Of a stretch of 39,596 bases of DNA, positions 7,787 through 18,472 are shown piece by piece. Each line of letters begins with the position of its first letter. The first letter of the stretch is position 1. Under the pieces are notes generated by a model. It did not search any database. It was not told the origin of the DNA and saw nothing but the letters and a program-made list of their open reading frames with translations. Where the stretch lies: contig JACQIX010000012.1 of the NCBI GenBank assembly GCA_016198275.1, forward strand, positions 1 to 39,596. Direction: 5' to 3'. Both the position numbers and the translations under genes were made by a program. Origin of the DNA: Candidatus Daviesbacteria bacterium (GTDB lineage Bacteria; Patescibacteriota; Microgenomatia; Daviesbacterales; UBA10151).

Positions 7787-9243
7787 GAATATTGATCCGG
7801 CAGATCGTTTTCTAAAAGAATAGCAATTTCAGTGTCATACCTTGCAATTCGTTCAGTCATTTCTTTGGCCATTTGGTAGGCCAAAGATAAACCTTCCTTG
7901 GTGGAGCCAACAAAATGGGTGGTTGATTCCGGCTCTTTTAAAACCTGCTTTATTCCTTCCAATAAATATTTTTTGTTATATTCCCCAACAATAATTACCT
8001 CATCCCCAATGCAAGCTATATCATTGCCAAGTTGCCTATTTGTTCCAGCTGTTTCTTTTCCCAGTTGCACAAATCCGGGTGTGATGATAATTTTTTTAGC
8101 ATTGAAACTGTCCAATAATTTTAATGAACTTTCCGCAGATTTTGGGTTAGTGTTGTAAGAATTATCAATTAAAGTAATATTGCCCATTTTTTTAATTTCC
8201 ATTCTGTGTGGAGTTGGTAATAATAATTTTGCCCGGTCTTTGATTTCAGAAAGAGTTAGACCCAAATTTAGGGCAGCAGCTGTGGCTGCTAAGAAATTTT
8301 GTGCGTGATGTTCGCCAATTAAGGGAATTTTGATTTCTGCTTTTCCCTCAGGAGTATGGATGGTGAAAGAAGTGCTGCCACTATTGTTGCTATTTATACT
8401 GGTTGCATAAAATGGGTCTTTTTCTCGGCCATAAAAAATCGTGCGGACACTGGGGTGGAGGCTCAAATCTTTAAGTATTTTATATTCCCCATTTAATATT
8501 GCCAGCCCGTTTTCCGGCAGACTTTCTACCAGTTCAAATTTGGCTTTCGCGATATTTTCCAAAGAGCCAAATTTTTCCAAGTGCTGAGGAGCAATGGCAG
8601 TAATAATACCAGTTTGAGGCTTTATTAAAGAGGCAATCTCTTTAATCTCCCCTTGCCGATATGCTCCAATTTCGCAGATAAAAATATCAGTATTTTTTTT
8701 AACTTGCTCCAAAATAGTTTGAGCAATACCCAGCGGGGTATTAAAACTTTTAGGGGTTTTAACTACATAATATTTTTTAAATAAAAGGGTAAATAAAATA
8801 TCTTTGGTAGAAGTTTTGCCGAAAGAGCCGGTGAGCGCTACCACTTTTAAATTTGGAAGTCTGGATAATTTATTTTTGGTTTGTGTAAGTATTTTTTGTT
8901 TCTGATAAAACTCCAATGGAGAAATTAAAATTTGGGAAACCACTAAAAATAATGGAAAATAAAGAAACTTAATAAGTAAAAGAAGCAAAGTAAGCCCTAA
9001 ATTACCTATCAGCAGATAGGAAGTTACTGCCGAATCTAAAATAATCAGTGCCGTACTTTCAACTGCCAAAAGTTTTGCTTTTGGGGTCCATTCTAATTTG
9101 TGTTTTTTCTGTAAGTTTCTTTTTAATAGATTATTAGAAAACCACTTCAAAAAATCCCAGGATTTATATTCCAAAACTTGGAAAATATAAAGATGATCAA
9201 ATAAAGGGAATATTTTATGAAAAATCTTTGATATAATAAGCAA
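7783..9243 (-). CDS. murF: UDP-N-acetylmuramoyl-tripeptide--D-alanyl-D-alanine ligase-like (MurF)
   Basis: Mur ligase P-loop GSFGKTSTKD, PKSFNTPLGIAQTIL, EIGAYRQGEIKEI, HRMEIKKMGNITLIDNSYNTNPKS; extra N-terminal hydrophobic segments. Confidence 0.88.
   Translation of the reverse strand: MLIISKIFHKIFPLFDHLYIFQVLEYKSWDFLKWFSNNLLKRNLQKKHKLEWTPKAKLLAVESTALIILDSAVTSYLLIGNLGLTLLLLLIKFLYFPLFLVVSQILISPLEFYQKQKILTQTKNKLSRLPNLKVVALTGSFGKTSTKDILFTLLFKKYYVVKTPKSFNTPLGIAQTILEQVKKNTDIFICEIGAYRQGEIKEIASLIKPQTGIITAIAPQHLEKFGSLENIAKAKFELVESLPENGLAILNGEYKILKDLSLHPSVRTIFYGREKDPFYATSINSNNSGSTSFTIHTPEGKAEIKIPLIGEHHAQNFLAATAAALNLGLTLSEIKDRAKLLLPTPHRMEIKKMGNITLIDNSYNTNPKSAESSLKLLDSFNAKKIIITPGFVQLGKETAGTNRQLGNDIACIGDEVIIVGEYNKKYLLEGIKQVLKEPESTTHFVGSTKEGLSLAYQMAKEMTERIARYDTEIAILLENDLPDQYS
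8447..8475. repeat. Diverged copy of the HPKG element in murF
   Basis: ACACTGGGGTGGAGGCTCAAATCTTTAAG; encodes KDLSLHPSVRT; shares TGGGGTGGAG.CTCAAATCTTT with the holB copy. Confidence 0.5.
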
Positions 9244-9958
9244 ACCTTTCCGGGTCGTAGATATGTAAAAAATGACCCTTATCTTCCAAAGATATCAGCT
9301 TAGAATTTTTAATTAATTGATACATTCTTTTTCCATATTTTATAGGAACTGCCCTGTCTTTTTCTCCGCAAATAATTAATGTCTGGGTATTAATTTTTTT
9401 TAAATCTTGGGTTAAGTCTTCGTTTAAAGTTTTAACTAGAGTGTCTTTCATCACGCCTACATTATAGTAGTCAGATTCAATTTTTCTGTAAAATTTTTTT
9501 CTGATAAGAGATTTAATATTAAAAATATCTGGAATTAGAAAATGGAAAATTTTTGCTAATGGATAAATTAATACTCTTTTGATAGATGGATCAGGTTTTA
9601 GGCCGGAAGAACCTACTAATATTAATTTATCAACTAGATTAGGGTGTATGGCAGTTAATTTGATTGAAACTTTGCCGCCAAAAGAATGTCCTAACAGAAA
9701 GGGTTTTTTAATATTATTATTTTTGATAAACTCTGCCAGGATTTTGGCATAATCTTCGCTGTCGCAGGCCTTTTTTGGAATATCTGACCTGCCAAAACCA
9801 GGCAAATCTATCAGCCATAAAGTAAAATTGTCTTTGAGAAAATCTATGGCGGGCCAAAAGGTGGATACATCCATTCCCCATCCGTGCAGCATAATTAAAT
9901 CTTTTCCCCTGCCTACTTTTTGATAATATATATTTAGGTCGTTAATTTTAGAATACAT
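9215..9958 (-). CDS. Alpha/beta hydrolase
   Basis: HGWGMDVSTFWPAIDFL, nucleophile elbow LLGHSFGGKVS, ICGEKDRAVP, GHFLHIYDPERF. Confidence 0.88.
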   Translation of the reverse strand: MYSKINDLNIYYQKVGRGKDLIMLHGWGMDVSTFWPAIDFLKDNFTLWLIDLPGFGRSDIPKKACDSEDYAKILAEFIKNNNIKKPFLLGHSFGGKVSIKLTAIHPNLVDKLILVGSSGLKPDPSIKRVLIYPLAKIFHFLIPDIFNIKSLIRKKFYRKIESDYYNVGVMKDTLVKTLNEDLTQDLKKINTQTLIICGEKDRAVPIKYGKRMYQLIKNSKLISLEDKGHFLHIYDPERFAYYIKDFS

Positions 9959-9959
9959 A

Positions 9960-17500: not shown

Positions 17501-17796
17501 GTAGTCATAATTACCTCCAGGGCTGATTTACCTACTTTTTTATGAATCTCCACAGGGATTCCCCTGCCATCATCAGCTATAGTTATATAATCATCCTCGT
17601 GCAAAACTGCCCAGATATTTTTGGCAAAACCGGCCAAAGCTTCGTCAATGGAATTATCAACAACCTCTTTTATCAGATGATGAAGTCCCCGCAGGTCAGT
17701 TGAGCCAATATACATCCCGGGACGTTTGCGGACAGGCTCCAAGCCTTCCAAAACTTGAATTTGTTCTGCAGAATACTTCGTGGAATCTTTAGCCAT
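14551..17796 (-). CDS. gyrB: DNA gyrase subunit B precursor containing an intein
   Basis: 1081 aa; [51 protein letters not shown], then the intein, then [22 protein letters not shown] and [18 protein letters not shown]. Exteins total 648 aa. Confidence 0.96.
15163..16461 (-). mobile_element. In-frame intein (433 aa, residues 446-878 of the GyrB precursor) with HNH homing endonuclease
   Basis: Cys1 block [13 protein letters not shown], block [22 protein letters not shown]-terminal [24 protein letters not shown] followed by Ser+1; HNH-like core [33 protein letters not shown]. Both junction codons (TGT at 16461-16459, AAC at 15165-15163) are in frame. Confidence 0.95.
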
Positions 17797-17824
17797 TAAA
17801 AAACCTTTTTGAGGTAAGTATACC

Positions 17825-18472
17825 TTAACATTTTTTATCGGGCATCACAAGCATTAAATACTCCAGTATTGCCCTGATGTTTACATTTTGTCTAGCCCAC
17901 TGTTCTGTTTGCAAAAGCACTTTTAAAAAAAGAATATTTGAGGGGGCACCCTTGGGGTGGAGCCTCAAATCTTTGTGAAAAAAAATCAATAATGCGTGAA
18001 AAAACTCTTCTCTGTCTTTTAATTTCTCAATAAAAGCAAAACGTTCTTCTGGGGCGGAACCTAATAATTTCTCTATATCACCCTCATATTTAGAGACAAG
18101 AGGCTGTGGGTTAAGGTAAATAATTTCACAGCGGGAAGTGACAGTGGGCAAAATTTGAGCATCCGAGGAAGCTGCCAAAATAAAAATAGCCTCTTTGGGT
18201 AATTCCTCCAGAGTTTTTAACAGAGCATTCTGGGCTTCAAGTGTGAGGCTGCCTGCCTGTTCAATGATTGCTGCCCTGCCTGCAGAGTATGGTTTTAAAG
18301 AAAAATGACGGGTTATTTTTCTGGCCTCGGCAACCCCCAATTTCTGACCCGTCCTAAAGTATAAAACATCAGGGTGGTTTAAATTTAGACTGCCTGACTG
18401 TAAAGCCAGAATTGCATTGATTTTTTCTTTGATATTTTCCAAAGATGAAGAAATTAACAGTTTGGCAAGCAT
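17825..18472 (-). CDS. holB: DNA polymerase III delta'-like clamp-loader subunit
   Basis: 215 aa; [72 protein letters not shown], a typical HolB/DnaX-family stretch. Confidence 0.85.
17936..17970. repeat. 35-bp palindromic element inside holB
   Basis: ATTTGAGG ggg CACCC ttg GGGTG gag CCTCAAAT: 8-bp outer and 5-bp inner arms share one centre (17953); encodes [12 protein letters not shown] on the minus strand. Confidence 0.7.

Follow-up and report, generated by a model that had tools for sequence, protein, structure and literature searches.

Results

Palindromic Elements in murF, murC, and holB

The window (the whole stretch of DNA that was analyzed, 39,596 nt from Candidatus Daviesbacteria) contains three minus-strand genes that carry copies of one short palindromic element. 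These are the gene for a murF-like ligase (7783–9243, 486 aa), murC for UDP-N-acetylmuramate–alanine ligase (12106–13443, 445 aa, TIGR01082 at 370 bits), and holB for the delta-prime subunit of DNA polymerase III (17825–18472, 215 aa). One copy is found in holB, two are found in murC, and a decayed copy is found in the murF-like gene. The gyrB gene of the same window (14551–17796) contains an intein, with matches to TIGR01445 and TIGR01443 at residues ~446–879 of 1081.

The core of the element consists of a 5-bp stem around a 3-base center, the long arms are kept in some copies only, and the whole element measures ~36 bp (12–13 codons). The best preserved copy is that of holB (17936–17970, minus strand; core 17947–17959), with the arms ATTTGAGG and CCTCAAAT and 11 aa encoded in sense. 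The element at murC site 1 (13246–13281, minus strand; core 13257–13269) encodes LRFHPKGAGSI, and that at murC site 2 (12716–12752, minus strand; core 12726–12738) encodes LSIHPKGVNTI. The 15-mer CACCCTTGGGGTGGA occurs exactly at 12726, 13257, and 17947, where a near-identical core had been noted from the sequence alone. The two murC copies and the holB copy read HPKGA, HPKGV, and HPKGA, respectively, in the same codon phase of minus-strand genes, in keeping with the common frame and orientation claimed earlier. The copy in murF (8445–8472, minus strand) retains the right arm, has lost the left side of the stem, and encodes LSLHPSV. Its right arm, TGGGGTGGAG[G/C]CTCAAATCTTT, matches holB at all but one of 22 positions, a pattern that no shuffled sequence contained, so that the diverged copy reported at 8447 is genuine and decayed. 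When folded as single-stranded DNA, the long palindrome was found to be kept in the holB copy only (z −3.7), which is the copy for which an extended palindrome had been described. Folding is moderate for murC site 2 (z −2.8) and confined to the core for murC site 1 (z −1.1), and no hairpin is left in the murF copy (z +0.3).

The window by itself is a weak test of repetition, since 0.77 matches are expected at up to three mismatches and three matches were reached in 3 of 100 shuffles. A pattern search of the 788 kb genome for the 13-mer CACCCTTGGGGTG returned 10 exact copies and no copy with one mismatch, compared with ~0.02 copies expected by chance for a random 13-mer; the reversed control pattern had no match. 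A genome-wide search with CACCCNNNGGGTG returned the identical ten places and no further ones. These counts and controls rule out chance as the source of the repeat and bear out the claim of a mobile-looking palindromic family with further copies. By pattern search and by reading the stretches around each match, eight of the ten copies were placed inside genes and two in intergenic DNA. Seven of the eight, including both in murC and that in holB, read HPKG in one phase. From the residues read, we take the other HPKG hosts to be lepA, pheT, and the genes for an O-antigen ligase-like membrane protein and a small methyltransferase-like protein. The remaining in-gene copy reads APQGW in what is, on the same basis, presumably a prmC-like gene.

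A Transposase between Paired Palindromes

The 13-mer is present in 30 of 95 related genomes, 29 of them from the same family (a count that includes the window's genome) and one from the 50 genomes of other families in the class. A longer pattern for the 5′-end was found in Candidatus Daviesbacteria records only (13 of 13 stretches) among ~85,000 species genomes. The number of 13-mer copies per genome is uneven and ranges from 0 to 15; a DNA-uptake sequence is ruled out by this low count. Three GatC-like sites (L089, L119, and L125) also carry the 13-mer, within residues reading VDTLGVEPT, which resemble a natural GatC motif; they fall under the length limit and hence outside the frame count given below.

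The copies in the relatives are often paired, ~700–740 bp apart, and a transposase of ~215 aa lies between the members of such pairs. This protein scores above the cut-off for Pfam Y1_Tnp, and its sole NCBIfam match is to NF047646, REP-associated tyrosine transposase (RAYT), at an E value of 6e-13; this match falls short of the equivalog cut-off of that family. The motifs HFH and SYTKYY (HUH, catalytic tyrosine) were read in it, and a sequence search of the PDB found no relative. The transposase occurs in 39 of the 45 family genomes, often in multiple copies. The window's genome (G000) has one RAYT, on contig 33 (G000:C33:5908-6543). The palindrome lies 46 bp upstream of this gene, and a decayed version, GGCGCCCTTGGAGTGG, is found at its stop codon. 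No second gene was found between the palindromes in the units that were read.

In the flanks of ~130 transposase genes, the two sides of a gene usually share one palindrome, which differs between genes; CACCCTTGGGGTG, CTACCTCCGAGGTAG, CACCTTAAAGGTG, CAACCCCGGGGGTTG, CACACCCGGTGTG, and more were found. The arms past the hairpin are common to them, with hairpin-GAATnGTATTGACACCTGCGGA at the 5′-end and ATTTGAGnnGG-hairpin-GAAAGCTAA at the 3′-end. The copies in holB, pheT, and murC site 1 carry the arms of the 3′-end (ATTTGAG..GG-hairpin-GAA..), and the copy in lepA carries those of the 5′-end (TCCGCAGGTGTCAAC..hairpin). For a second palindrome, the solo copies in a MurT-like gene have ~40 bases that resemble the end of its transposase unit. 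A third palindrome, CCCACTCGTCAAGTGGG, is absent from the 39,596-nt window; in four genomes (G012, G027, G036, and G044), its exact form adjoins the 3′-ends of RAYT genes.

The window's genome also contains two copies of CTACCTCCGAGGTAG (L292 at G000:C2:37515 and L302 at G000:C16:3786), the palindrome of the RAYTs in G015, G039, and G041. Two loci of G024 (L090 and L093) hold clusters of the 13-mer within longer TATCACACCC...GGGTGTGATA palindromes, direct and inverted, that resemble REP clusters.

Reading Frames, Loops, and Protein Length

Excluding transposase ends, 46 of the 125 sites in the relatives lie within open reading frames of at least 150 aa. The frames are HPKG (34), xPQG (8), HPWG (3), and PPLG (1), the last two (4 of 46) being copies on the other strand; the remaining two frames are not used by any of the 46. 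With orthologous sites collapsed, HPKG is still the main frame, at 17 of 24 distinct one-frame sites by hand count. Several causes would fit this preference, namely which frames are open, how well a polar HPKG turn is tolerated, insertion specific to one strand, and common descent of the sites.

Comparison with orthologues of the relatives, many of which lack the element, supported only in part the suggestion that its residues are extra. The stretch around the loop lengthens from 23 aa without the element to 30 with it in holB (+7), from 23 aa in ~12 relatives to 30 here at murC site 1 (+7), from 27 to ~35 in lepA (about +8), and from 28 to 33 in the membrane protein. There is no net gain against the relatives at murC site 2 (26 aa without the element and 27 with it), where the same element occupies the same site in four other genomes (G017, G027, G030, and G042). 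The element thus often replaces a loop rather than adding to it. Since the net gain elsewhere (+5 to +8.5 aa) is smaller than the 12–13 codons of the full element, one has to suppose either subsequent trimming or an atypical mode of insertion. In predicted structures, HolB residues 172–176 form a turn between two helices, MurC residues 59–63 (site 1) lie in a loop segment with pLDDT below 50, and MurC residues 236–240 form a loop between a helix and a strand, in agreement with the loops of essential proteins that the sequence-only reading had proposed.

Element-free loops are present within the same family; no clean empty site was seen in any pair of near-identical strains. In the prmC-like genes, the genomes differ in which of three loops carries the element, and each loop is element-free in some of the other genomes. 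Palindromes of different families occupy the same loops in different genomes. In the O-antigen ligase-like protein (L003, L072, and L086), the loop reads HPKG in two genomes and HPWG in a third, the latter with the central three bases inverted. The third palindrome or its close variants (SHSSSGN, SHLTSGN; loci L390–L416) are found at the same loops in holB of G006 and G030, murC of G044, and the membrane protein of G041. The translated repeats CHPEQSEGS... and VIPANAGIQ... fill HPKG loops in murC (L143) and the prmC-like gene (L101) of G044. The presence of such other repeat families indicates that the sites are tolerant in general.

Similarity of Palindromes in Genes to Those of the Resident Transposase

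The best GC-rich hairpin per genome was taken from five orthologous loops (lepA, the membrane protein, both murC sites, and holB), for a total of 57 hairpins. Their mean similarity to the RAYT palindromes of their own genome was 12.37 of 17, compared with 10.86 ± 0.35 after permutation of the genomes (p 2e-4, kinship ignored). With the 13-mer left out (n = 39), the values were 11.38 and 10.11 ± 0.30, respectively (p 2e-4, same permutation, kinship ignored). The same loop sites are filled across many genera, and part of this pattern is therefore inheritance. The holB hairpin of G024, TATCCAACCTCGGGGGTTGGATA, matches its own RAYT at 17 of 17 positions, which the RAYT of no other genome reaches.

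Copy number was compared with the presence of a matching RAYT, tallied by hand and with kinship ignored. The median number of solo 13-mer copies is 4.5 in genomes with a 13-mer-bearing RAYT versus 0 in those without (p 0.001), and the copy number of the second palindrome likewise tracks its matching RAYT (p 0.0003). The copy number of the third palindrome, which is found in murC and holB loops, does not clearly track its RAYT; G026 has five copies with no matching RAYT in the flanks that were read. Against the general link also stands G011, which has five copies of the element and no RAYT detected.

Discussion

In this report, we describe a transposase gene of Candidatus Daviesbacteria that has its own short palindrome on either side. 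Solo copies of these ends are dispersed in the genome, genes included. With good confidence, we identify the element in murC, holB, and murF as the terminal palindrome of this one-gene RAYT-type (Y1/HUH) unit. The earlier proposal of a palindrome that inserts in frame was thus largely right, and is refined here to the terminal palindrome of a RAYT unit in the same genome. By analogy with related enzymes, the HUH tyrosine transposase would recognize the hairpin in single-stranded DNA, cut beside it, and join it elsewhere. Insertions in genes would survive where the frame stays open and the site is a tolerant surface loop. The reading CAC CCC AAG GGT (HPKG) would predominate among the survivors, given that stops occur in two of the six frames and that proteins readily accept a polar, turn-like peptide. 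The native loop may then be partly lost, such that the element replaces it. Movement and cutting of the element, and its neutrality, are presumed from these patterns, and the HPKG peptide is, in our view, without a function in itself.

It is conceivable, although we would not favor it, that the palindrome in the loops was inherited long ago and is repeatedly overwritten by the active RAYT through conversion, rather than fresh insertions. Such a history would account for the left arm of lepA (KSAGVN, TCCGCAGGTGTCAAC), which is common to genomes whose hairpins differ, and for the filling of the same sites across genera. However, plain short loops are found in many relatives, and the unrelated repeats CHPEQSEGS, VIPANAGIQ, and SHSSSGN in the same loops fit repeated independent entry. 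A related and similarly tentative suggestion is that the loops of LepA, MurC, HolB, PrmC, and the MurT-like ligase are lasting docking sites at which palindromes are repeatedly rewritten to the resident RAYT. If this were true, housekeeping proteins would have a short peptide under continual re-editing by a transposase.

The palindrome varies from genome to genome in parallel with the RAYT palindromes, which makes it improbable that the sequence is kept for a function in DNA or RNA, as a binding site for a host protein or a regulatory hairpin, with its place in genes being incidental. The small and uneven number of copies and the decayed copies in intact genes (murF, and lepA of G003 and G035) point in the same direction, although the exact core of all ten genome copies and the stems that still pair despite sequence change in lepA (CACCTGGAAGGTG, CACCCCGGGGGTG) and the membrane protein (CAACCTCGAAGGTTG) are what such a function would produce. 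A protein motif of the usual conserved or convergent kind, for which only the lack of extra residues at MurC site 2 would speak, is ruled out by the frame changes at the same place (HPKGG, TPQGC, and PPQGW in lepA; HPWGG in the O-antigen ligase-like protein) and by the same DNA core in intergenic copies, and HPKG is found in unrelated proteins and is absent from most orthologues.

RAYT ends offer a probable origin for protein-coding palindromes, for which no mover is known in other systems. The presence of several palindrome families with paired transposases in many genomes turns the origin of translated palindromes into a testable question. In a reduced Patescibacteria genome, selfish DNA can supply small surface loops of essential proteins.

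Comparison with Known Systems

In a literature search that covered few subscription papers, no description of such elements was found for Daviesbacteria or Microgenomates. The unit resembles the IS200/IS605 family in having a Y1 transposase between imperfect palindromes (hairpin ends). Unlike that family, the units that were read have no second gene, solo ends outnumber units, and the nearest NCBI family of the transposase is REP-associated.

The pairing of REP with RAYT is well established (PMC3733652, PMC8266576), and TnpA-REP of E. coli, S. maltophilia, and Marinomonas cuts single-stranded repeats in vitro (PMC8266576). The Daviesbacteria units are like REPtrons (TnpA-REP with GTAG palindromes) and TIRtrons in that a single Y1/HUH gene has a short palindrome repeated on its flanks, solo copies are dispersed, and the palindrome is specific to its transposase. 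Intragenic REPs have already been reported, including one case in which the recB genes of two Xanthomonas species carry different REPs at nearly the same position (PMC3733652). However, a GTAG or CGTC tag lies within 12 bases of the Daviesbacteria palindromes at only 1 and 3 of 122 sites, respectively, and whereas classical REPs are high in copy number and mostly extragenic, the Daviesbacteria element is neither, with 0–15 copies per genome and more than a third of the sites (46 of 125) in open reading frames, mostly in one frame. The loops that are common to many genomes and filled by several palindrome families are a further difference.

Rickettsia palindromic elements (RPE) are translated in-frame palindromes in Rickettsia genes (PMC10969869), and the likeness in principle that the sequence-only reading had drawn to them holds. 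Both are found in frame in functionally unrelated genes, in tolerant protein regions, and in a reduced genome, and both have a preferred frame, which is HPKG for 34 of the 46 copies in open reading frames here. As judged from their description, RPE differ in being ~150 bp long and without a known transposase, compared with ~36 bp and a resident transposase in Daviesbacteria; CGTC repeats, including RPE-4 and RPE-6, have been reported not to be associated with transposase genes (PMC3733652). The likely source of the palindrome, a RAYT unit, is the new part, and the comparison points to a REP/RAYT-like system crossed with RPE, in which the translation typical of RPE and the RAYT pairing typical of REP meet in one system in many related genomes.
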